From: Sulfurospirillum tamanense
GTDB taxonomy: Bacteria; Campylobacterota; Campylobacteria; Campylobacterales; Campylobacteraceae
NCBI RefSeq assembly: GCF_016937535.1
Contig: NZ_JAFHKK010000011.1
Location: 1 to 64,000 of the forward strand
DNA length: 64,000 bases
Reading direction: 5' to 3'
The notes beneath the pieces were generated by a model. The model was given only the letters and a program-made list of their open reading frames with translations, did not search any database and was not told the origin of the DNA. Positions 46,591-62,702 of this stretch are shown piece by piece (position 1 is the stretch's first letter; each line of letters starts with the position of its first letter). The translations under genes and the position numbers were made by a program.

Positions 46591-46605
46591 CGAGAATGAT
46601 TATCA
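46591..46605. promoter_or_regulatory. Fur box before feoAB
   Basis: CGAGAATGATTATCA, matching the 7-1-7 consensus TGATAAT-n-ATTATCA at 12 of 14 places, 27 bases before the feoA start. Iron-loaded Fur would block feoAB. Confidence 0.75.
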
Positions 46606-46631
46606 AAAGCGATACGAAAAAAGAGGTTAAC

Positions 46632-46856
46632 ATGTGTTTAGATGAACTTGCCAGCGGCACCCTTTGTAGAATCATCAAAGTACACGCCCACGATGCACTT
46701 AAGTACAAACTCCTTGACATGGGATTTGTCTCAGGCGCTCAAGTGAGCGTGGTGCGTGAAGCCCCCCTGTATGACCCCATGGAGTTAAAAATCCACAACT
46801 ACCTCCTCTCTTTACGAAAAAGCGAAGCGAAGCTGGTAGAGGTGGAACTCGTATGA
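46632..46856 (+). CDS. feoA: Ferrous iron transport protein FeoA
   Basis: 74 residues of SH3-like fold, from the ATG at 46632 (GAGG before it; the earlier ATG at 46596 lies in the Fur box). LDMGFVSGAQVSVVREAPLYDP is the typical core. It supports FeoB, whose start overlaps its stop by four bases. Confidence 0.93.
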   Translation: MCLDELASGTLCRIIKVHAHDALKYKLLDMGFVSGAQVSVVREAPLYDPMELKIHNYLLSLRKSEAKLVEVELV

Positions 46857-49312
46857 TTAAAGTTGCCCTCGCAGGTCAGCCAAATTGCGGCAAATCAACC
46901 ATTTTTAACCTCATCAGCGGACTCAAACAACACATTGCCAACTACCCCGGTGTCACGGTTGAAAAAAAATCTGGCACTTTTTCGCACCAAGGCGAAACCA
47001 TTGAGGTGGTGGACCTTCCAGGAACCTACTCCTTTAGTTCTTATTCCCTTGAAGAGCGCGTAGCCAAAGAGTTTATCCTCAACGAAGAGCCTGATATTAT
47101 CGTCAATGTTGTGGACGCTTCTAACATTAAGCGCAATCTTTATCTTACGTTTCAACTCTTAGAAATTGGCAAGCCCGTCGTGGTGGTGCTAAACATGATG
47201 GACGTGGCAGCAAGGCGTGGCATGGACATTGACGTTCAAAAAATAGCACGCATGCTTTCATGCCCCGTGGTTCCCGCAAGTGGCGCAAGAGGCGAAGGCA
47301 AAGAAGCCATCGTTGAAGCTATCATGCAGGCTAAAACCACCCCTTACAATGAATTTAAAATCAACTACGAAGAGCTTGAACCCCTCATTAAGGAAACGCA
47401 AGCACTCATCACCACAGACTCCCCGCAGGCATCGCGCCGTTGGCTCGCCATCAAAGCCCTTGAGGGTGACGGTGTTATTTTGGAAAAATTACCTAAAGCC
47501 ACCCTTGCCATTCGCGAAAAATGCTTAGACTTTCACCGCCAATATGACAAAGACGTGGAGAGCTTTTTGGCCACCATGCGTTACGATTCGGCTGATGTCA
47601 TCTATCACCAAAGTGTCGTCGAGAAACAACAAGGCAAAAAAACGGCTACAGACATTGCCGATGGGCTTATTCTCAACCGTTGGCTCTCATTTCCCATCTT
47701 GTTTCTCATCATCTTCTTAATCTACCAATCTTCCATCGTCTACGGCTACAAGCTCACCGACTACACGTGGCCCCTGTTAGCCGCTTTCAAAAACTTCATC
47801 ATCGGCATTTCTCCTGAGGCTGATTTTACCCAAGTGCCCATGATTACGGATTTTGCCATCTGGATGGTCAACAGCGCCAACGCCCTGTTAAACTACATCC
47901 CCATTTTTCTCATCCTTTTTGCGCTCATTGCTATTTTGGAGGATGTGGGCTACATGCCGCGCATGGCTTTTATCTTAGACCGTATTTTTAAAAAATTTGG
48001 CCTCCATGGGCAATCCACCCTTCCGCTTGTGCTAGGTGGCGCCTTTGTAGGTGGGTGTGCGGTTCCTGGCATTATGGCGACCAAAGGCATTGCGGATGAG
48101 CGGGCGCGCATGGCGACGATTTTATCTGTACCTTACATGAACTGCCTTGCAAAAGTCCCTTTTTATACCCTTCTGTTAGGGGCATTTTTTGAAGCACAAA
48201 TGGCACTCATGATGTTTTTCATCTCCACCGCCACCCTTTTTATTGCTCTCATTGTGGCTAAAATTTTAACCGCAACAGTTTTAAAAACGCGCGAAACCTC
48301 TCCTTTTGTGATGGAGCTTCCCCCTTACCACCTCCCTACCTTTAAAGGGGTTATCTTTCGCGCTTTTGAACGGGTGTGGATGTACATCAAAAAAGTAGGC
48401 ACCATTGTCTTGGCTGTTGCGATTGTTTTGTTTGCCATGCTAGAACTTCCTGGCCTTAGCGATGAGCAAAAAGTAGCATACGAAGCACGAAGCGACGCAC
48501 TTCTTACTTCTTTTTATGCCCAAGCGGCCAAAACCTCATACGGTGAACAATTAAGCACTCGCGAAAGTGTATCAGGACTTTTGAACACCTATGATGATTA
48601 CCGCGCCAGACGCATGTCGGCAAGCCCTGCGCAGGCGGGTAACATCGACGCGGATTTTGAGGCAAAAGCACCTTTTTACATGACCTTTATTAAGCCACCA
48701 GCCGACGACGCTGAGGCAAAAACCATCAATCGCCAATTACGAAACCTTTCCCGTGATCGCCGTGGCATCTTGCAAGAGATGAAAAATGACAAAGTAGAAA
48801 GCTCATTACTGGGATTCATCGGACGTTCTTTAGAACCTGTCACCCAATTTGCAGGTTTTGACTGGAAAATCAATGTGGCTTTTTTGAGCTCCTTTGCTGC
48901 GCGTGAATCCGCTGTAGCAACACTGGGAAGTATCTATGAAAACAACGCGGCTGACAACTTAAGAGCAGAAGAAGCCATGGCACAAAACAGTGGCTATACG
49001 CCTTTGCATGCTGCGGCCATTATTATTTTCATGCTTTTAACGCCACCTTGCATTGCGACTATGATTGTCGTAAAGCTCCAAACCGGGAGCTACAAATGGA
49101 TGCTTTTTGCTATCTTTTTTCCCATTACCTTGGGATTTTTGGCCGCATCGCTCATCTTTACCCTTGGGACTGGCTTTGGATGGAGCGGTGTTGAAGCCTT
49201 TGCGCTCTTTTATGGCACCGTCATTGCCTTGGCTCTTTTCATGGGGAGCTTACCGCAAAAACGCATCAACTGGAGCGGTGGTTTTACAAAAAGTATTTTA
49301 AATAAATCTTAA
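46853..49312 (+). CDS. feoB: Ferrous iron transporter FeoB
   Basis: 819 residues. G domain with GQPNCGKST (8-16), DLPGTYSF and NMMD; helical spacer; then the membrane part with two Gate motifs (GGAFVGGCAVPGIMATK and the matching later segment SSFAARESAVATLGS). It imports Fe(II). A stretch of about 130 residues between two late helices (about 540-670) is longer than usual. It is followed by four exported or membrane proteins that may serve the same route. Confidence 0.95.
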   Translation: MIKVALAGQPNCGKSTIFNLISGLKQHIANYPGVTVEKKSGTFSHQGETIEVVDLPGTYSFSSYSLEERVAKEFILNEEPDIIVNVVDASNIKRNLYLTFQLLEIGKPVVVVLNMMDVAARRGMDIDVQKIARMLSCPVVPASGARGEGKEAIVEAIMQAKTTPYNEFKINYEELEPLIKETQALITTDSPQASRRWLAIKALEGDGVILEKLPKATLAIREKCLDFHRQYDKDVESFLATMRYDSADVIYHQSVVEKQQGKKTATDIADGLILNRWLSFPILFLIIFLIYQSSIVYGYKLTDYTWPLLAAFKNFIIGISPEADFTQVPMITDFAIWMVNSANALLNYIPIFLILFALIAILEDVGYMPRMAFILDRIFKKFGLHGQSTLPLVLGGAFVGGCAVPGIMATKGIADERARMATILSVPYMNCLAKVPFYTLLLGAFFEAQMALMMFFISTATLFIALIVAKILTATVLKTRETSPFVMELPPYHLPTFKGVIFRAFERVWMYIKKVGTIVLAVAIVLFAMLELPGLSDEQKVAYEARSDALLTSFYAQAAKTSYGEQLSTRESVSGLLNTYDDYRARRMSASPAQAGNIDADFEAKAPFYMTFIKPPADDAEAKTINRQLRNLSRDRRGILQEMKNDKVESSLLGFIGRSLEPVTQFAGFDWKINVAFLSSFAARESAVATLGSIYENNAADNLRAEEAMAQNSGYTPLHAAAIIIFMLLTPPCIATMIVVKLQTGSYKWMLFAIFFPITLGFLAASLIFTLGTGFGWSGVEAFALFYGTVIALALFMGSLPQKRINWSGGFTKSILNKS

Positions 49313-53344: not shown

Positions 53345-54972
53345 TGCGCGCTATTTTCACCAAAGAGTGGACCAAACTCAAACCCTTGGTGCCCCTGTGC
53401 CTCATCCTTCTTCTTGCGAGTGCTTTTGCGCTGTGGCATCATGTGCGCTATTTGTTTATCAGCGTTGAACCCGAATCCATGGCATGGTACCGTTTTTCTT
53501 TTTTAGGAGAAAAACCCTACTCCTCTTTCTTGTGGCTCTATTTTCTTGTTGGCGTCTTAGTGGCGGTGGTGCAGTTTTTACCCGAACGCCTTCAGGGTCG
53601 CATGAAACTTCTTGCCCACCTGCCCTTGCGTCCTTTCTCTCTTTTGGCCCTACACCTTAGCATGGGTGTGGCCTTTTTGGGGGTTTTTGCATTGCTTCTT
53701 AGCGGCGTTTTATACGCCCTAATAGGGCATTATTACCCCGCACCCGTGGGAATTGTTGCCCTAAAAGATAGTTTTTTTTACGCGCTAGGGAGCATCCTTG
53801 CCTACAGTGGTCTAAGCGCAGCTATCCTTGAAAAATCCTCCAAACGTGCCCTTTTAAAACTCACCCTCACCCTTGCGATTGGTTGGATTTATGCCCAACC
53901 CCCCTTTGGTTGGGAGAATTTAGGCTGGATTGGCGTAGGGCTTTTCTTGATGGTTCTTGCAGGTGAGAGCTTTTTGCGCATCAAAGACATACCCTTGCGC
54001 TCTCCTGCCTTTTTCGCCTTAGCATTTTTGGCCCTTGGGTTTGCAGGCGTTAAAGGTGTAGGATTTTTCCTAAACCATTACACCACACCACTAACCCATT
54101 ATTATCTTTTTTATTCGCCCATTGCCAAAACCTTTGTTTACCAACGCAACTTTGGCGGCCACCAGTTTGAATACGGCACCAAAGAAGGCGAAACCTTTGA
54201 CCGCCTTACCTATGAAGGACTACTGCCTTTTGTCTATTGGCGCAATTTTGAAATTCAGGGCAAGCTTCCTTTGGAGATAGATGGCACCGTGTTTGAAGCG
54301 GAAGAGATTAAAGAGAGTCGTCTTAGTTTTGCCTACACACCCAGTGCGCTAAAACCCAAAGAGGTAGCCCTACTGCCCCTCATAAACCCCAAGGCCAAGA
54401 CGAGCATGATTCCCTTTCCTGAAGAGGTTTTACACGTCAAAAAAGATGCCATTGTCGCCTATGGCGAACACGCACGTGTAGACACCAAGCTTACCCAAGA
54501 GATTGCCACGCTTGCGGCAGATGCAGGAGTTCGCTTTCCATTGCGCCATGTTTGGGGCAAACACACCAACCTAAAACCCCATGATTTTGGAATGTTTTTA
54601 GCGGACAGCCAAGGGGCACTCTTTAACCTCAAACGCTACGATAACCGCACAACGCTTGAAGCTATTCAAACACCCCCAGGTCTTGAACTTTTTTACATGT
54701 ATCCTAGCGAAAACCGCGCCAATCATCTAGCCGGATACGCCATTGATGCTATGGGAAAGATGCATGTTCTCCTGCGAGAAAACTGGGAATTTATCCCCCT
54801 TGTTTTGCCAAATTTTGATTACACCTCTATGCAGTTTCAACTCATCCAAGACCCGCTGCACTACCTCGTGCGTTATGACAACGGTACAGAGTATTATGCG
54901 GTGCTTTTTTCTAAGGATTTCACCCTTTTAGATACTACCTCTTTTTCATCTGCCAACAAAGGCTCTTTATGA
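53341..54972 (+). CDS. ABC-2-type membrane protein with large periplasmic domain
   Basis: 543 residues; about six membrane segments in the first 240 residues (FLWLYFLVGVLVAVVQFL, LSMGVAFLGVFALLLSGVLY and others) with AHLPLRPFSLLALHL as likely contact with the ATPase. The last 300 residues are a soluble, beta-rich domain with no named family. It overlaps both neighbours by four bases. Such ABC-2 exporters often move peptides, lipids or cofactors; the cargo here is unknown. Confidence 0.78.
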   Translation: MMRAIFTKEWTKLKPLVPLCLILLLASAFALWHHVRYLFISVEPESMAWYRFSFLGEKPYSSFLWLYFLVGVLVAVVQFLPERLQGRMKLLAHLPLRPFSLLALHLSMGVAFLGVFALLLSGVLYALIGHYYPAPVGIVALKDSFFYALGSILAYSGLSAAILEKSSKRALLKLTLTLAIGWIYAQPPFGWENLGWIGVGLFLMVLAGESFLRIKDIPLRSPAFFALAFLALGFAGVKGVGFFLNHYTTPLTHYYLFYSPIAKTFVYQRNFGGHQFEYGTKEGETFDRLTYEGLLPFVYWRNFEIQGKLPLEIDGTVFEAEEIKESRLSFAYTPSALKPKEVALLPLINPKAKTSMIPFPEEVLHVKKDAIVAYGEHARVDTKLTQEIATLAADAGVRFPLRHVWGKHTNLKPHDFGMFLADSQGALFNLKRYDNRTTLEAIQTPPGLELFYMYPSENRANHLAGYAIDAMGKMHVLLRENWEFIPLVLPNFDYTSMQFQLIQDPLHYLVRYDNGTEYYAVLFSKDFTLLDTTSFSSANKGSL

Positions 54973-55424
54973 ATCCAACCACACCCAAGCATAAAAAAAC
55001 CTTTGACGCCTTTTACCAGCGTTTTCTTGCCATGACCAAAGACCAAGGCCATTATGAATCTGCGCACCGAGAAGCCATTTTGAAGGTGCTTTTTTTTAGC
55101 ACCTCCCACCTAAGCGCAGAAGAGATTGCGCTACAAGTACGCAAGGAGTCGAAAATTTCCCTCCCCACAGTGTACAACACCCTCTCCTTTTTAGAAGAAC
55201 TTGGCATGATTCATGTGTTTATTTTGCCTCCCTACACCCTCAAAACTTACCGGTTGATGCTAGAGTACCACGACCAGCTTGTGTGCATTAAATGCGGAAA
55301 AATCGTTCCTTTTTACGATAAAGAACTCGAAGCGCGCGAGCGGCTTATCCTCCAAGACCACGCCTTTACCGGCATCAACCAAACCATTATTTTGTACGGT
55401 GTTTGCAGTTCCTGTAAAATCTAA
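54969..55424 (+). CDS. Fur-family metal-responsive regulator
   Basis: 151 residues. Winged helix with LSAEEIALQVRKESKISLPTVYNTLSFLEELG and a C-terminal dimer domain with YHDQLVCIKCGKIVPF and YGVCSSC, the two CxxC of a structural zinc site. It is Fur or PerR type; the exact metal is not clear. It lies at the end of the ABC operon and just before the fez-like cluster, so it may control either. Fur-like sites are seen upstream of several genes here. Confidence 0.9.
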   Translation: MNPTTPKHKKTFDAFYQRFLAMTKDQGHYESAHREAILKVLFFSTSHLSAEEIALQVRKESKISLPTVYNTLSFLEELGMIHVFILPPYTLKTYRLMLEYHDQLVCIKCGKIVPFYDKELEARERLILQDHAFTGINQTIILYGVCSSCKI

Positions 55425-55466: not shown

Positions 55467-55481
55467 TGATAACAACAATCA
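55467..55481. promoter_or_regulatory. Weak Fur-like site before the fez-like cluster
   Basis: TGATAACAACAATCA agrees with the 7-1-7 Fur consensus at 11 of 14 places and lies 68 bases before the first gene of the cluster. AT content is high here, so it may be chance. Confidence 0.4.
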
Positions 55482-55548
55482 GTAAACTTTAAGTTTTTTT
55501 TAAATCCAAGAAGACTAGGATTGTACTATTACATGTAAGGAAGTACCG

Positions 55549-55869
55549 TTGGAAATTCGCACAGAAGAGATTGTCAGATTGCTTTCATATTTTTCACTGA
55601 TCCACCACGTCAAGGGCCGCATTCGCCTTCGCGTAAATCCAAAAATCAAAGAACATGGCAAGGGATGGAAGATTGAAGACATTGAGCAGTTGGCCCAAAA
55701 AATCACGGGCATCACGCGCGTCAAGATTAATAAAATTGTTGCCTCCATCACCATTGAATACGATGCAAACATTCTCCCCATGCATTTATGGGAAGATTTA
55801 ACCCAAGGAACCAACACCCAAGAAGTAACCCAGCGCATCAACGCCGCGTACAAGGAGATTCAACAGTGA
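55549..55869 (+). CDS. HMA-like protein at the head of the fez-like cluster
   Basis: 106 residues from a TTG at 55549 (AAGGAA before it, overlapping the end of a TTACATGTAA palindrome). It has the heavy-metal-associated-like fold: HHVKGRIRLRVNPKIKEHG, then ITGITRVKINKIVASITIEYD. The HxxxGRIRLR motif recurs at the N-terminus of the ATPase encoded downstream (HAAPGRVRFQHPG). No CxxC metal motif. Ferrosome loci carry a protein with an HMA-type domain (FezC); this is a candidate by analogy. Confidence 0.7.
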   Translation: MEIRTEEIVRLLSYFSLIHHVKGRIRLRVNPKIKEHGKGWKIEDIEQLAQKITGITRVKINKIVASITIEYDANILPMHLWEDLTQGTNTQEVTQRINAAYKEIQQ

Positions 55870-56534
55870 AAAAAGCCAAAAAATCTTTTCTTAAATACGT
55901 AGACCCCGCCCTTAAACTCTCTCCCTTCCATCAAGCCTTGCACATCGCCTTACGCGATGCATATTATGGTTTTGCCTTGCACAAAAAGGCCGTTGAGGCC
56001 TTTGGGTTTGTGGCTCCTTTTGCAACAGTGCTTGAGGCAAAACAGCAGCACATCACCGAGCTTACCTCTTTGCTTGTTCGCTATGAAATTCCTCTGCCAA
56101 AAAATGAGGAATCAGCATGCATCATGCCACCTATGGGACTTTTGGAAGCTTATGAGCTTGGGGTTGCTTTTGAGATTGAAACCATTCAGCGCATCACCCA
56201 TCTTCTTCCTTATGTCGCCACTTACCCTGACGCGCAAGAGATGTTTTTTCGCCTTCAAGCAGCGTCTTACAACACTTTTTTGCCCACCTTTCGCTCCCAC
56301 GTCGCACAGCAAACATCTACCCCCGCAACCCAAGGGCTCTCACAAGAAGAGATGATGGCTAAGGTTGAAGAGTGGCGTGGCATGGCGCAAAGAATCGCAG
56401 CAGGCGACACTAACGCACTAGGAGAAATGTTTCAAGGCATGAATATCTCTTTGATGGGAGGAATGCTCTTAGGAGGGGTTGCGGCCTCTCTTTTGAGCCA
56501 AATGAACACCCCTGAAGAACCCGAGTCGCTCTAG
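55866..56534 (+). CDS. Ferritin-like helical protein
   Basis: 222 residues from the GTG at 55866 (GGAG before it). Helical bundle with ALHIALRDAYYGFALHKKAVEAFG, then VLEAKQQHITELTSLLVRYEIPLP, similar to the DUF2202 ferritin-like proteins in which Glu and His bind a di-iron site. The C-terminus turns hydrophobic (LMGGMLLGGVAASLLSQM), unlike ferritins, and could anchor or target it to a membrane. It lies four bases into the HMA gene's end. Iron binding is inferred. Confidence 0.68.
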   Translation: MKKAKKSFLKYVDPALKLSPFHQALHIALRDAYYGFALHKKAVEAFGFVAPFATVLEAKQQHITELTSLLVRYEIPLPKNEESACIMPPMGLLEAYELGVAFEIETIQRITHLLPYVATYPDAQEMFFRLQAASYNTFLPTFRSHVAQQTSTPATQGLSQEEMMAKVEEWRGMAQRIAAGDTNALGEMFQGMNISLMGGMLLGGVAASLLSQMNTPEEPESL

Positions 56535-56585
56535 CAGGCCCACCCTTGCACCTTTGGTGCACACACTTACCACAAAGGAAAACCC

Positions 56586-56810
56586 ATGGCACTACCATTT
56601 TTAGCAGGCATCGCCCTTGGAGGCTTGGTCGTTGTTGCCTACAATAATAAATCGGCCCTCAAAGCAAAACTCACAAAAGGCGCGCAAAAAGCCAAAGAGA
56701 TGGCACAATGCGGTATCGAAAAAGCCAAAGAAGTCGCACAGGAGACGCAAACATCTCTTTGCGAAAAAGAAGCTTGTTCACAAGAAACCGCCCCAAAGGA
56801 AAACACATGA
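56586..56810 (+). CDS. One-helix membrane protein with amphipathic tail (fez-like cluster)
   Basis: 74 residues. N-terminal hydrophobic segment LPFLAGIALGGLVVVAYN with small-residue spacing (AGIALGG), then a basic, Ala/Lys-rich amphipathic helix (SALKAKLTKGAQKAKEMAQ) and an acidic tail with two Cys. Small proteins with such an N-terminal small-xxx-small helix are described for ferrosome loci. AAAGGAAA precedes the ATG. No other family. Confidence 0.68.
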   Translation: MALPFLAGIALGGLVVVAYNNKSALKAKLTKGAQKAKEMAQCGIEKAKEVAQETQTSLCEKEACSQETAPKENT

Positions 56811-57139
56811 TTGATACAGGCGCCCCAAGAAATGTTCTTGGTCACGTTGTGAGTGGCACCCTTGCTTCTGCAGCCATTGCAGGCGGAATGCAATACAACC
56901 AAGTACAAAAAGGCACTCTTGGCAAAAAGGAGGCTATTCATGCCACGCTTAAGCTCTCTTTGCAAGGCGGCGTTGCCACAGGTGCAGCCATTGCAGCAAC
57001 CAACCATCTGGGCAAAAGTAATTTTTTTGGCGCACTTAGCGCACTTAGCCTTGGCATAGCCGGCGTGTATGCCATTGAAAAAATCAGCGAACAACTGCAA
57101 GAAAAAGACTCTTGCGAATCCCTAGAAGCACAACAATAA
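56807..57139 (+). CDS. Small hydrophobic protein (fez-like cluster)
   Basis: 110 residues from the ATG at 56807, overlapping the previous stop. Gly/Ala-rich hydrophobic stretches (VVSGTLASAAIAGGM, GGVATGAAIAATNHLG and FGALSALSLGIAGVYAI) suggest two or three short membrane helices with GxxxG-like packing. The end is polar with one Cys. Could be a structural protein of a vesicle or compartment membrane. No family recognised. Confidence 0.68.
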   Translation: MIDTGAPRNVLGHVVSGTLASAAIAGGMQYNQVQKGTLGKKEAIHATLKLSLQGGVATGAAIAATNHLGKSNFFGALSALSLGIAGVYAIEKISEQLQEKDSCESLEAQQ

Positions 57140-57150
57140 AAGGAAAATTT

Positions 57151-57393
57151 ATGGAAAACCCTTACATCAAAACACCCCCAGTCGTCTCAGAAACCTTGGG
57201 CAATTTCAACACCAATGATTTTCTCAAAGGTGCTCTCATTGGAGCAGTAGCCACCTATTTGCTCACTAATGAAAATGCCCAAAAGGCTATCTTTAAAACC
57301 ATTGCCAAAGGCACTCAATTGTTTCAAACAGGCATGGAGGAGATGAAAGAGCGCATGGAAGACGCCAAGGCAGAAATGGAAGCGCAAAGATAA
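57151..57393 (+). CDS. One-helix protein with coiled-coil tail (fez-like cluster)
   Basis: 80 residues from the ATG at 57151 (AAAAGGAAAA before it). One hydrophobic helix (NDFLKGALIGAVATYLLTN, with GALIGA), then a charged helix (MEEMKERMEDAKAEMEAQR). Same small-residue pattern as its neighbours, as if the three small genes make a family of helix-packing proteins. Two bases separate its stop from the ATPase gene. Confidence 0.68.
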   Translation: MENPYIKTPPVVSETLGNFNTNDFLKGALIGAVATYLLTNENAQKAIFKTIAKGTQLFQTGMEEMKERMEDAKAEMEAQR

Positions 57394-57395
57394 CC

Positions 57396-59513
57396 ATGTC
57401 TTGGCGCATCAGACTGCTACATGCAGCACCAGGCCGAGTGAGATTTCAGCACCCCGGAGTAGGCGAACAAACAGACATCAAACGTCTTGAAAAAGCGCTC
57501 ATGACCTTTGAAGGTGTGAGTTTTGTGCGCATTAATCCAAAGTCCCATTCTGTTGTTTTTATGTATGAAAACACGTCTGTAGCTGCCTTAAGAAAAGCCT
57601 TACATGTAACAGATGTAGATGCTTTCGTCCAACAGCCCTCGCCCATACATTGTGCCATTGGAGCCCACAACGAAACCCCTAGCGTAAAAGGGCTCGTTCG
57701 GGCAAGCACCGCCCTTGTGGCAGAACGGTTTGTGAGAAACGATCGGCTTAAATTTTTTATCACCGGGGTTGCCACCTCTCCATTGCTCCTCCCAGGAACA
57801 AAAACCCTCCTCACCCAAGGGCTTAGTTCTAAAGTCCTAGAAGCCATGGCTGTGGCTGTTTCTTTGGCACGCAAAGATTACCTTGCCGCCAACAGCACCA
57901 ACACCATGCTTGAACTGGGCGAATACATCGAAGAGAGCACCGTACACAAAAGTGATGATCTCATCAAAGAATTGGCCAAGCCAAACATCGAAGAGACGTG
58001 GATTGAGGTGGAAAAAAACGGCAAAAAAAGTCAAAAACTTGTCAAAACCGCCTCGCTCAAAATTGGAGACATTGTTATCGCAAGTGCGGGTGAAACCATC
58101 TGTGTCGACGGGCATGTCATCTACGGAGAGGCTTCTATCAACCAAGCCTCCATGACCGGCGAAGCCCAACCTGTGAAAAAAAGCCGTGGTGATCGGGTCA
58201 TCTCTGGCACTGTCATTGAAGAGGGAAAAGTCAAAATTTGGGCCGAACAAGTAGGAGAAGACACCGCTACTGCGCGCATCAAAGAGTACATTGCTCATTC
58301 GCTCAATGAAAAATCAGCCATCGGCTTGCGCGCCTCACGCCTCGCGGATAAGCTCGTGCCCATCACCTTGGGGCTTGCGGGACTCTCTTATGCTATTAGT
58401 AGAGATTTTCAATCCGTTGCTTCGGTGCTTCAAGCGGATTATTCGTGTGCCCTTAAGCTTGCTACGCCCGTTGCTTTTAAAACCTCCATCGCCCAAGCAG
58501 GAAAAGACGGCGTGCTCATCAAAGGCGCCAAACCCATCGAAGCACTCGCTCAAGTAGACACCTTTGTCTTTGACAAAACAGGCACCCTTACGTACGGTGA
58601 ACTGGAAGTCGTGCACATTGAATCCTTTGATGAAGCATGGAGTGAAGATGCCATTTTGAACCTCACCGCAAGTGCGGAAGAGCACTATTTTCACCCCGTA
58701 GCAGAAGCCATTGTGCGTGCGGCCAAGGAGCGGGGGTTTGTGCACATGCACCACGAAGAGGTTGATTTTATCATCGCCCACGGGGTAAAAACCATTGTCA
58801 ACGATAAAGAAGTTGTCATCGGGAGCCGCCACTTTTTAGAAGACGATGAAAAGATTCCTTTCAAGCAGTACCAGAAAAAAATCGACTCCTTTCTTAAGCG
58901 TGGAAACTCCGTGCTTTATGTGGGGTATGATGGCAAGCTCTTAGGCGCTATCGGGATGGTTGACACCCTGCGCCACAATGCCAAGGCTGCCTTAGCGCGC
59001 CTTAAAACATTGGGTGTTAAAGAACTTGTCATACTCACCGGAGACATCCAAACCAAGGCCGACGTGCTTGCTAAAGAGCTGGGTATTGACCGTGTGTACG
59101 CTAACATGCTTCCCACCCAAAAAGCTTCTATCATCAAAGCCCTGCAAGGCGAAGGAAAAAAAGTGGCTTTTGTGGGGGATGGCATCAACGATGCGCCCGC
59201 GCTCATGAGTGCCAACGTGGGCATTAGCATGCAAAAAGGGGCAGACATCGCCAAGGCAACAGCAGACATTGGATTGCTAAAAGATGACATTGGAGCTGTG
59301 TGCGAGATTAAAGAACTTGCCAACCAAACCATGGAACGCATTCATAATAATTTCTCAGCCACTGTAGGCATTAATAGCATGATTTTACTAGGAGCGACCG
59401 CAGGGGTGTTAAGCCCTATTGCAACAGCGATATTGCACAATGGTACGACGATTGGATTGTTGCTAAATTCCATAAAAGGGCTCAAACCCCACCAAAAGAA
59501 AGCTAAGATTTAG
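57396..59513 (+). CDS. P1B-type heavy-metal ATPase with SCALK motif (FezB-like)
   Basis: 705 residues. N-terminal HMA-like motif HAAPGRVRFQHPG; actuator TGEAQ (about 254); phosphorylation site DKTGTLT (about 391); GDGINDAP (about 594). In the helix where P1B pumps carry CPC, SPC or TPC it has DYSCALKLATP (about 347-357), so it belongs to none of the well-known copper, zinc or cobalt groups. Ferrosome FezB proteins are P1B-6 pumps and this cluster (HMA protein, helix proteins, ferritin-like protein, Feo and Fur neighbours) fits. It would move iron into a compartment or out of the cell. Confidence 0.85.
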   Translation: MSWRIRLLHAAPGRVRFQHPGVGEQTDIKRLEKALMTFEGVSFVRINPKSHSVVFMYENTSVAALRKALHVTDVDAFVQQPSPIHCAIGAHNETPSVKGLVRASTALVAERFVRNDRLKFFITGVATSPLLLPGTKTLLTQGLSSKVLEAMAVAVSLARKDYLAANSTNTMLELGEYIEESTVHKSDDLIKELAKPNIEETWIEVEKNGKKSQKLVKTASLKIGDIVIASAGETICVDGHVIYGEASINQASMTGEAQPVKKSRGDRVISGTVIEEGKVKIWAEQVGEDTATARIKEYIAHSLNEKSAIGLRASRLADKLVPITLGLAGLSYAISRDFQSVASVLQADYSCALKLATPVAFKTSIAQAGKDGVLIKGAKPIEALAQVDTFVFDKTGTLTYGELEVVHIESFDEAWSEDAILNLTASAEEHYFHPVAEAIVRAAKERGFVHMHHEEVDFIIAHGVKTIVNDKEVVIGSRHFLEDDEKIPFKQYQKKIDSFLKRGNSVLYVGYDGKLLGAIGMVDTLRHNAKAALARLKTLGVKELVILTGDIQTKADVLAKELGIDRVYANMLPTQKASIIKALQGEGKKVAFVGDGINDAPALMSANVGISMQKGADIAKATADIGLLKDDIGAVCEIKELANQTMERIHNNFSATVGINSMILLGATAGVLSPIATAILHNGTTIGLLLNSIKGLKPHQKKAKI

Positions 59514-59532
59514 AGTTCCTTTGCTATGATTG

Positions 59533-59547
59533 TGATATTTATTATCA
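59533..59547. promoter_or_regulatory. Fur box before the gene at 59562
   Basis: TGATATTTATTATCA, 13 of 14 matches to TGATAAT-n-ATTATCA, 14 bases before the ATG at 59562. Suggests that the last two genes of the cluster have their own iron-repressed promoter. Confidence 0.75.
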
Positions 59548-59561
59548 CTTAAGGAGCTGGA

Positions 59562-59687
59562 ATGGGACTCTTTTTTCCTCTTGCCACAGGTATTGCCACA
59601 GCAATCACCTTGGTATTAACGTACGAGACAGGCAAACATGCAAAACGAAAACTTGAGCGCAAAAAAGGGAAACTTTCCCACCACTGA
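59562..59687 (+). CDS. 41-residue membrane peptide (fez-like cluster)
   Basis: ATG at 59562 with AAGGAG five bases before it. One hydrophobic helix (MGLFFPLATGIATAITLVLTY) and a basic tail (KHAKRKLERKKGKLSHH). The helix has Thr/Gly/Ala spacing like the other small proteins here. Its end overlaps the next start by 50 bases. It is directly under a good Fur box. Too small for a family assignment. Confidence 0.6.
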   Translation: MGLFFPLATGIATAITLVLTYETGKHAKRKLERKKGKLSHH

Positions 59688-60213
59688 TCTTGACACTAAA
59701 AAAGAAGTGGCCAAAATCGGCATGGCGACTTCTTTGGCTATTGTGACAGCCACTTCTGTTTACATGAAAAACAGGCTAATGAAAAACCTGCACATTGGCG
59801 CGGGATTTGCCCTTATTGGTTTTTCAGTATGGCATCATATGCTTTACCAGCCAAGCAAAGCCGTCAAATCTCCGCTTCCTCCACGCCCAAAACCAAAAAC
59901 CCTTGCCTTGGGGCATGTCTACACGGAAGTCATTCTCAAAGAAAAAGCCAGTAAGCGTGATGTACGGCTTTTGAAAGAAACTTTGGGAAATTTATGCAAA
60001 GAGAGCGGGACGCAAGCAGTGCATTTGCTCGTTGACACCCAGCTTATCAAAGAGCTTGAGATTTGGCAAGGGTTTGTGACGCTCTTAAAAGAAGACGAGC
60101 GTATCGCCAAAATCGCCATCTTTGGCGACGAGACCCTGCCTTCTGGAGAGCTTTTAGCCAAAAACGTGCGCTATTTTCACACCTATCTTGAAGCCAAAGC
60201 GTGGGCTTCTTAG
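59638..60213 (+). CDS. Two-helix membrane protein with STAS-like C-terminal domain
   Basis: 191 residues. Two hydrophobic segments (KIGMATSLAIVTATSVYM and LHIGAGFALIGFSVWHHMLY), a Pro-rich linker, then about 95 residues that resemble a SpoIIAA/STAS-type fold (AVHLLVDTQLIKEL, IAIFGDETLPSGELLAKNVRYFHTYLEAKAW). Such domains bind lipids or nucleotides or recruit proteins. It lies one base before the convergent mntP stop. Likely part of the iron cluster, role unknown. Confidence 0.72.
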   Translation: MQNENLSAKKGNFPTTDLDTKKEVAKIGMATSLAIVTATSVYMKNRLMKNLHIGAGFALIGFSVWHHMLYQPSKAVKSPLPPRPKPKTLALGHVYTEVILKEKASKRDVRLLKETLGNLCKESGTQAVHLLVDTQLIKELEIWQGFVTLLKEDERIAKIAIFGDETLPSGELLAKNVRYFHTYLEAKAWAS

Positions 60214-61338: not shown

Positions 61339-61372
61339 TTTCCTTACATGTAAAGCTTTACATGTAAGGAAA
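61339..61372. terminator. 34-base perfect palindrome made of two TTACATGTAA units
   Basis: Two TTACATGTAA units (61344, 61358) flank AAGC/GCTT so that the whole 61339-61372 is a perfect palindrome ending TTTCC/GGAAA. It is 12 bases after the flavodoxin stop and would form a long hairpin on either strand; on the minus strand it is followed by TTAACGCG rather than a T run. Likely 3' boundary of the flavodoxin transcript. Confidence 0.6.
61344..61353. repeat. TTACATGTAA palindrome family (32 exact copies; this is one member)
   Basis: Exact copies start at 2636, 3389, 4466, 5765, 7331, 11184, 12535, 15996, 17390, 19105, 20295, 20405, 20426, 22268, 22661, 23106, 26120, 28153, 33198, 33617, 34230, 35235, 40183, 43626, 44301, 46463, 51593, 55529, 57600, 61344, 61358 and 63554. 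Flanks favour CC(T) before and (A)GG after. Thirteen are inside genes, two form stop codons, seventeen are intergenic. At least nine one- or two-base variants exist (for example 15316, 29473, 32249, 36397, 41752, 42521, 54690, 63590). Core ACATGT outside these contexts is rare. Confidence 0.95.
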
Positions 61373-61383
61373 ACAAAGGGGTA

Positions 61384-61878
61384 TTACAACTGTGCTTTTA
61401 AGCGCTCAACCCAAGTATCGATACGCTCATCAGTGAGCTCGTCTTGGTTGTCTTCATCGATAGCCAAGCCCACAAAAGCGCCATTTTTAACCGCCTCAGA
61501 GGCTTCAAAATCGTACCCCTTCACAGGCCAATCTCCGCCAATCATCACCGCACCTTTATCAGTACACACTTCGTGCAAAATCCCCATACCGTTGCAAAAC
61601 TCGTGACCATAACCCTCTTGGTCACCTAGTCCAAAAAGTGCTACACGTTTTCCGACAAGCTCTAAAGTGTCCGTATTAAAGGATTCCCAGTCGTCTTGCA
61701 ACTCACCATCATACCACGTGGATGTCCCAAAAATAAACGTATCGAACGTGTTGAGTGTTGCCGCATCGGCACTTCCAATGTCAAACACCCTAGCGTCCAT
61801 TCCCAGTGTCGCTTGAATCTTTTTTGCAACACCTTCTGTGTTGCCGCCACTACTGCCGTAGACAATCGCTATTGCCAT
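61384..61878 (-). CDS. fldA: Flavodoxin
   Basis: 164 residues. FMN phosphate loop YGSSGGNTEGVA at 7-18 (one residue different from the usual T/S-x-T-G-x-T), FGTSTWYDGELQDDW and GLGDQEGYGHEFCNGMG are the two isoalloxazine loops. Start at 61878 is chosen (GGAG five bases before); the long frame upstream overlaps the previous gene. It carries electrons in place of ferredoxin and, under the Fur-box promoter upstream, would be raised in iron shortage; in related bacteria it is also the acceptor of pyruvate oxidoreductase. Confidence 0.94.
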   Translation of the reverse strand: MAIAIVYGSSGGNTEGVAKKIQATLGMDARVFDIGSADAATLNTFDTFIFGTSTWYDGELQDDWESFNTDTLELVGKRVALFGLGDQEGYGHEFCNGMGILHEVCTDKGAVMIGGDWPVKGYDFEASEAVKNGAFVGLAIDEDNQDELTDERIDTWVERLKAQL

Positions 61879-62621
61879 CATTGCTCCTTTACTGAATGTG
61901 AAATTATATAAGGCACCAACTTCACACGCGCGCATTGCTCGTGGGGTTGACGCACTTGAATGTGACGGGTAAAAAGCGCATTGCGTGGAAAAACAAGGTA
62001 CACCGCGCGCGTTCCATTTTGTGCAAGGCGCTTCCACGCCCTAGAGATTTCCTCTTCGACGCCTTTGGGGTTGTTTTTGTCCACGCGCTTCACACACGGC
62101 ACAACACTAAGCACCCTTTCTCCCGCTTCTTCGATGATGATTTCATCGCACTCGATGTAGACGTTTTTATCAGGATTGCGCTTGCAGATTTTTTCATACA
62201 CAAACTGCAAAAACAGCCCGCTCGCATCGAACATCATCCCTGGGTTTTCTTTGGCAAAAAGACGATAAATCCGCTTTGCTGGCTCAAAAGAAGGCAACGT
62301 TGCCATATTGCAAGCAATGGCATGGGCAGCGTGCATGTCGCCACTCAAAAAAGCATGAATAAGCGCACTACTGCGAGGACAGAAAACCAAACGCGAAGAA
62401 ACAGGAGAAAGCGGCTTTGGAATACTTTGCCTGATCGCATCAAAAAAATGTTCCGCCAAAGGCTGATGGCACCCTTTTAATAAAACCCGCTCATCTGGTT
62501 CAGCACACAAATTGTACTGGGTCAGAAAAAGCATCCGACGCTGTGGTCTTGGCAGGTGACGAAACATAGGAGGTGTGCGCTCAATCCATTCGCCATTTTG
62601 AAACTCAAACCCAACCAACAT
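61878..62621 (-). CDS. Fur-box-controlled protein of unknown function, operon with flavodoxin
   Basis: 247 residues, no signal or membrane segment. Landmarks: RHLPRPQRRMLFLTQYNLC, VFCPRSSALIHAFLSGDMHAAH, FEPAKRIYRLFAKENPGMMF and IIIEEAGERVLSVVPCVKRVDK. Several Cys. I recognise no family. Its stop overlaps the flavodoxin start region, and a perfect Fur box lies 66 bases upstream, so both are probably iron-starvation genes. AGGTAGG stands before the ATG. Confidence 0.7.
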   Translation of the reverse strand: MLVGFEFQNGEWIERTPPMFRHLPRPQRRMLFLTQYNLCAEPDERVLLKGCHQPLAEHFFDAIRQSIPKPLSPVSSRLVFCPRSSALIHAFLSGDMHAAHAIACNMATLPSFEPAKRIYRLFAKENPGMMFDASGLFLQFVYEKICKRNPDKNVYIECDEIIIEEAGERVLSVVPCVKRVDKNNPKGVEEEISRAWKRLAQNGTRAVYLVFPRNALFTRHIQVRQPHEQCARVKLVPYIISHSVKEQ

Positions 62622-62687: not shown

Positions 62688-62702
62688 TGATAATTATTAT
62701 CA
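62688..62702. promoter_or_regulatory. Perfect 7-1-7 Fur box
   Basis: TGATAATTATTATCA, exact inverted repeat TGATAAT-T-ATTATCA. It controls the minus-strand operon starting at 62621 (unknown protein and flavodoxin). The gap up to the channel gene stop (62744) holds no gene. Confidence 0.85.

Follow-up and report, generated by a model that had tools for sequence, protein, structure and literature searches.

Ferrosomes are tiny membrane-wrapped iron stores, and the genes behind them were first reported in 2022-2023 in a handful of species. Grant et al. reportedly described, in 2022, a six-gene fez operon in Shewanella putrefaciens. The subtype P1B-6 of the P1B-type ATPases, which we take to be defined by an SCA motif, includes the ferrosome pump FezB. 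At an earlier time P1B-6 was recognised as a subtype and had gone unexamined (PMC4932525). Ferrosomes of Rhodopseudomonas palustris CGA009 are made from six fez genes (PMC12016538), while the published FezC is, in another species, a DUF4405-like cytochrome that binds haem (PMC10979944). Here we analysed 64,000 nucleotides of Sulfurospirillum tamanense (contig NZ_JAFHKK010000011.1, positions 1 to 64,000; hereafter the window), in which an earlier note, made from the letters alone, had proposed a candidate ferrosome gene cluster at 55549-60213. Our results support that proposal: the cluster is probably the form that the fez operon takes in Campylobacterota, and ferrosomes are its most likely product. 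A search of the open literature found no description of ferrosomes in Campylobacterota; Grant et al. 2022, which lay outside that search, may list homologues.

A FezB-type ATPase in a conserved block of eight genes

The membrane motif of the ATPase encoded in the cluster is DYSCALKLATP, at a place where CopA and ZntA have CPC, so that the unusual SCALK motif predicted for this P1B-type enzyme is indeed present. In a tree of 68 ATPases, including E. coli CopA and ZntA as well as CPC and CPH paralogues, the SCA enzymes of Campylobacterota and Pseudomonadota (Shewanella, Vibrio, Azospirillum, Aromatoleum) formed one clade with support of 100/99, apart from CopA, ZntA and all of the CPC/CPH paralogues. 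Placement in another P1B group had been named as the outcome that would speak against a fez cluster; instead, the enzyme groups with those of six-gene fez-like operons. The SCA motif, the lack of CPC and the separation from CopA and ZntA also speak against a Cu/Zn/Cd exporter of the P1B-1/P1B-2 kind. Among the residues that are invariant in 46 FezB-type ATPases and absent from 20 other P1B ATPases are W202, D348, Y349, H450, H453 and N682, and two further histidines, H462 and H479, are conserved in 45 of the 46. H450, H453, H462 and H479 lie in the nucleotide-binding half and together may make up a histidine set, a candidate metal sensor that looks worth testing.

An orthologue of the ATPase (E below 1e-160) was found in 31 of the 59 other related Campylobacterota genomes searched. 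Twenty campylobacterotal ATPase loci were read out with their surroundings and are the basis of the part-by-part counts given here. Nearly all 20 share a recurrent order: HMA gene, (ferritin-like gene), genes of the 74-, 110- and 80-amino-acid (aa) types, ATPase, (41-aa gene) and last gene. The same orientation and all or most of the members are kept in these loci and on the Arcobacter sp. DSM 115972 plasmid p133 (L054, CP129951, 133 kb), which carries the whole set. The 80-aa gene is present in every locus (20/20), the HMA gene in 19 (the remaining contig is cut), the 74-aa gene in 18, and the ferritin-like gene and the last gene in 14 each. The membrane domain of the last protein occurs in 64 of 200 genomes of the phylum, representing 14 of 48 genera. 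In the window, a check of the open reading frames (ORFs) across 55549-60213 found all eight intact, on the plus strand and tightly packed, with several overlapping by a few bases. Because the block is conserved in gene order and orientation, these reading frames are not due to chance; the eight-gene cluster is real and is conserved as a block, with eight ORFs of the expected kinds in a row (Table 1).

Collinear operons are also found in Pseudomonadota. In a genome of the genus Shewanella (G313, 4.386 Mb; locus L172), an HMA2-DUF4405 fusion is followed by an HMA protein, an 82-aa protein, a MamC-like protein, a YtxH-like protein and FezB, collinear with the window, and this FezB is 45% identical to that of the window and is placed in its half of the tree. 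Azospirillum plasmids (L051/L055) have the order HMA2, HMA, 119 aa, 114 aa, YtxH-like and FezB. FezB was found in 11 of 117 Shewanella-genus genomes, ten of them with a Vibrio-like form of at least 62% identity to the query and the eleventh being G313, which is a plausible representative of S. putrefaciens.

Cytochrome-like, membrane and ferritin-like parts

The last gene fits a FezC counterpart, predicted to encode a DUF4405-type haem cytochrome. DUF4405 (PF14358) is matched by 15 of the 19 members of its family (best 1.7e-4), and His52 and His66 are invariant in the 19 sequences. In Azospirillum and G313, an HMA2 domain is followed, in one fused protein, by this two-histidine module, so that in Campylobacterota FezC appears to be split from its HMA part. 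The earlier note had instead taken the HMA protein to be FezC. This is ruled out, as published FezC is DUF4405-like (PMC10979944) and corresponds to the last gene. Homologues of the HMA protein occur in all untruncated campylobacterotal relatives and also in Azospirillum, Vibrio and Shewanella; in the six-gene operons it corresponds to the second gene. The last protein had been described as a two-helix protein with a STAS-like domain, and the two-helix membrane domain stands. The STAS part, however, is a sub-threshold SpoIIAA-like match (19.2 bits vs a Pfam cut-off of 25), occurs in one of 60 genomes, namely that of the window, and its fold was not confirmed by AlphaFold (low model confidence), which rules it out as a general part of the cluster.

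The small glycine-zipper membrane proteins of 74, 110, 80 and 41 aa are co-operonic with FezB, and the 80-aa YtxH-like protein is also present in Pseudomonadota operons. Small-xxx-small transmembrane (TM) helices were found in the tail of the ferritin-like protein and in the 74-, 110-, 41-aa and last proteins; such packing had been claimed for three small proteins and holds for those of 74 and 110 aa, being less clear in the one of 80 aa. The 110-aa protein matches the NCBIfam MamC model at 3.3e-5 and 24 bits, against a curated cut-off of 100 bits. The same model is matched by 13 of the 20 members of its family (best 3.4e-9), and in three genomes (the window's, G044 of the same order and one Shewanella) no protein of the whole genome matches MamC better than the fez 110-aa protein. 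A composition artefact is ruled out by these best matches, by the lack of any MamC match in 14 control genomes (0/14) and by a reversed copy of the 110-aa protein, which gave no match. As every score falls far short of the curated cut-off, we call the protein MamC-like and not MamC.

For the ferritin-like protein, the AlphaFold2 model is a four-helix bundle with a predicted local distance difference test score (pLDDT) of about 90+, followed by a Gly-rich C-terminal helix that is poorly modelled, in agreement with the predicted ferritin-like protein with a hydrophobic end. Among its top PDB matches in Foldseek (probability 1.0, E about 1e-2) are ferritins, bacterioferritins and diiron proteins related to them, and its homologues in relatives match Rubrerythrin/DUF2202. 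Alignments indicate that the di-iron site is partly eroded in the window copy, with the helix-1 Glu and the helix-4 His replaced; additionally, the helix-2 His is missing from several Campylobacter-type copies. The window copy thus has a ferritin-like fold and not the complete set of di-iron ligands of a cage-forming ferroxidase. Because these ligands are missing, a binding or scaffold role appears more likely than a ferroxidase cage, and catalysis is doubtful. In Aromatoleum the ferritin-like gene precedes the ATPase gene in the same order as in the window, and in the Thiomargarita and Methylocystaceae loci it lies elsewhere near the cluster. The earlier note had regarded the ferritin-like and extra helix proteins as new parts; they are extra parts that recur in relatives and are not peculiar to the window genome.

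Regulation and surroundings of the cluster

The FeoAB genes, the Fur-family regulator and the Fur boxes that had been noted around the cluster were all recovered. The feoA and feoB genes lie at 46596-49312, 6-9 kb upstream, with a two-mismatch Fur box at feoA (46591), and the window as a whole has 12 Fur-box matches vs 2.4 expected. A fur gene is also found upstream of the cluster in L027-L030, L032 and L033. The window genome encodes four FUR-domain proteins, of which the product of the gene next to the cluster is third in score, a second-tier paralogue. Upstream of the HMA gene, TGATWAY-type Fur-like elements occur in 11 of 19 campylobacterotal loci vs 3.4 expected, a number reached in 0 of 1000 simulated sets, and often stand just before TTTAAGTTTT. 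The latter, presumably the Campylobacter -35 box (10/10 match), was considered as a special operator and dropped in favour of an ordinary -35 element of that kind. Fur acts as the repressor of FezA and FezB in Clostridioides difficile (PMC12574912).

Table 1. Features of the cluster and of the region directly upstream (window positions)
Feature	Position	Strand	Remarks
Fur-family regulator gene	54969..55424	+	Pfam FUR 9e-22; directly upstream of cluster
HMA-gene promoter region	55467..55549	+	Fur-like TGATAACAACAATCA at 55467-55481 just before TTTAAGTTTT
HMA_2-domain protein, 106 aa, no CxxC	55549..55869	+	TTG start; Pfam HMA_2 6e-9
Ferritin-like protein, 222 aa	55866..56534	+	GTG start; GTGA overlap with HMA gene
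74-aa protein	56586..56810	+	N-terminal Gly-rich TM helix MALPFLAGIALGGL, then charged helix
110-aa two-TM MamC-like protein	56807..57139	+	ATGA overlap with 74-aa gene
80-aa YtxH/GvpT-like protein	57151..57393	+	One GxxxG-type helix (GALIGAVATYLLTN), amphipathic tail
FezB-type P1B-6 ATPase, 705 aa	57396..59513	+	N-terminal HMA_2-like domain; SCA motif DYSCALKLATP at 348-358
Fur box TGATATTTATTATCA, 1 mismatch	59533..59547	+	In gap between fezB and 41-aa gene
41-aa one-TM peptide	59562..59687	+	Short homologues at same place in 7/22 loci
FezC-like protein, 191 aa	59638..60213	+	Two-TM DUF4405-type domain (residues 15-75), weak SpoIIAA/STAS-like tail

Beyond the cluster, a perfect Fur box, TGATAATTATTATCA, stands at 62688-62702, upstream of a minus-strand gene (61878-62621) with a flavodoxin-like gene below it. 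The window contains 32 copies of the palindrome TTACATGTAA (e.g. 55529-55538, 57600-57609, 61344-61353), against about 0.1 predicted from composition, and 17 of the 32 sites fall outside long ORFs, which cover 86% of the window. It is found 1059 times in the 2.46-Mb window genome (the same letters reversed: once), 1084 times in a second genome of the genus and 804 times in one further genus, and is nearly absent from most relatives. Thus, TTACATGTAA is a highly iterated palindrome, similar to cyanobacterial HIP1, and as a genome-wide repeat its copy at 55529 is ruled out as a fez operator.

Several relatives have a second P-type ATPase gene between the fur and HMA genes, which is absent in the window; its product carries the motif SCPCATxLAAS (L027 4106, L029 6461, L032 3410, L033 3643) and forms a branch distinct from CopA and ZntA. 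On the Arcobacter plasmid p133, a HipA-type toxin gene lies a few kb from the fez-type cluster. Other fez-like sets differ in their ATPase motif: that of the Cereibacter azotoformans conjugative plasmid pORIO2 (L053) lies beside feoA and TonB receptors and has DYACPVKL instead of DYSCALKL, and in Fusobacterium vincentii (L056) an ATPase with DYSCGIRLST has as neighbours several HMA-type genes and one small TM protein rich in Gly. The latter is possibly a reduced fez-like set, its tree position being unsure on a long branch.

Predicted ferrosome formation, rival readings and known systems

From the fez literature and the anatomy of the locus we infer a sequence of vesicle formation, iron pumping, redox control and iron handling. 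The Fur-like boxes suggest that iron limitation would lead Fur, or the neighbouring Fur-family regulator, to derepress the operon. The glycine-zipper proteins (those of 74, 110, 80 and 41 aa, together with the tail of the ferritin-like protein) would then pack together in the cytoplasmic membrane and bend it, giving rise to a vesicle or its coat. FezB, as its family indicates, may pump ferrous iron from the cytosol into this compartment, fed by the HMA protein and by its own HMA_2 domain. By analogy with FezC elsewhere, the FezC-like cytochrome could move electrons across the compartment membrane and set the Fe(II)/Fe(III) state, which would enable iron deposition and later release. At the surface, the membrane-tethered ferritin-like protein would bind iron or hand it over.

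Several points weigh against a ferrosome. Its formation, in the sense of iron granules, is predicted here from genes alone, and the metal moved by FezB is deduced from the family for all of the members considered. The window FezB was compared with sequences other than those of the named, experimentally proven fez operons: the tree was built without the FezB of Desulfovibrio magneticus, R. palustris CGA009, S. putrefaciens CN-32 and C. difficile, and none of these four species is among the best 80 of 242 matches in the scan of contigs. In addition, the DUF4405 match of the window copy scores 16.6 bits vs a Pfam gathering threshold of 26.7, and the Fur-like box before the window HMA gene (55467) is weak, with three mismatches.

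A P1B pump beside small glycine-zipper TM proteins and an HMA protein is also the layout expected of an efflux platform without an organelle, in which the small proteins would gather the pump into clusters in the cytoplasmic membrane, for export of excess Fe(II), or perhaps of a different metal, to the periplasm. Mycobacterial PacL platforms offer the model, as they too have small TM scaffold proteins encoded beside a P1B pump, although PacL-linked pumps are of the CPC type, serve other metals and are not known to have a cytochrome or ferritin-like part. The window ATPase does pass the cut-offs of both TIGR01525 ('heavy metal translocating') and TIGR01512 ('cadmium family'). However, it lacks CPC and CPH motifs and belongs to the SCA clade with its six-gene fez-like operons, and the DUF4405-type cytochrome, MamC-like and ferritin-like proteins have no obvious role in simple efflux. 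We consider efflux of this kind unlikely.

The MamC-like protein could point to a magnetosome-like or other mineral-forming compartment, or to another kind of iron-cofactor machine, with an origin in common with ferrosomes. This is very improbable: no protein in the window genome scores above the curated MamC cut-off, and none of the other genes of the cluster was recognised as being of mam type, other magnetosome genes not having been searched genome-wide. It is just as hard to credit a change of function in the window genome, by which a cluster descended from ferrosome genes would now serve, for example, as a degenerate iron-redox membrane complex. Such a change would be in keeping with the ferritin-like protein, in which the helix-1 Glu and the helix-4 His are replaced, and with the STAS-like tail found only in this genome; against it stand the intact state of every reading frame and the conservation of the core (HMA, MamC-like, YtxH-like, FezB and the FezC histidines). 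A ferrosome thus remains the reading that we favour.

With a complete, conserved fez-type cluster in a large part of Campylobacterota, on a plasmid as well as in lineages of Campylobacter and Arcobacter, the making of iron organelles becomes testable in bacteria that are already well studied. Its MamC-like and ferritin-like proteins are concrete candidates for how ferrosome membranes and their iron filling arise, and bear on whether ferrosomes and magnetosomes are related. MamC (Mms13) of magnetosomes is, like the 110-aa protein, a two-TM, Gly/Ala-rich protein; the 110-aa family, though, scores far under the curated 100 bits, and no magnetosome genes were recognised near the 110-aa gene of the window. 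We tentatively suggest, as a possibility that is more doubtful than the ferrosome assignment itself, that a membrane part of ferrosomes and of magnetosomes goes back to a common ancestor, the 110-aa protein being a true MamC relative in the fez clusters of Campylobacterota, Shewanella and Vibrio, and that the campylobacterial ferrosome adds a membrane-tethered ferritin-like protein. If so, one bacterial organelle would bring lipid-bounded and ferritin-type iron storage together.

The fez clusters of D. magneticus and C. difficile, which presumably have fewer genes than that of the window, share with it a P1B-6 ATPase and small membrane proteins. Their FezC is DUF4405-like (PMC10979944), as the last gene of the window is predicted to be. 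The six-gene clusters of Vibrio, Shewanella and Enterobacterales (L052, L057-L112) have the HMA, MamC-like and YtxH-like proteins and a FezB with the SCA motif, as in the window; no ferritin-like gene or separate FezC was found in them, and they have an extra His/Pro/Met-rich protein of 200-300 aa instead. A further close likeness is to the six-gene fez operon of R. palustris (RPA2333-2338) and S. putrefaciens, seen here through G313 and Azospirillum, whose link to these named species we infer. The shared order is HMA, small TM protein, MamC-like, YtxH-like and FezB; the FezB proteins are 45-46% identical to that of the window, and the two-histidine DUF4405 module is present in both. In the six-gene form this module is fused to HMA2 and comes first. 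The campylobacterotal cluster has it as a gene of its own in last place and adds the ferritin-like and 41-aa genes.

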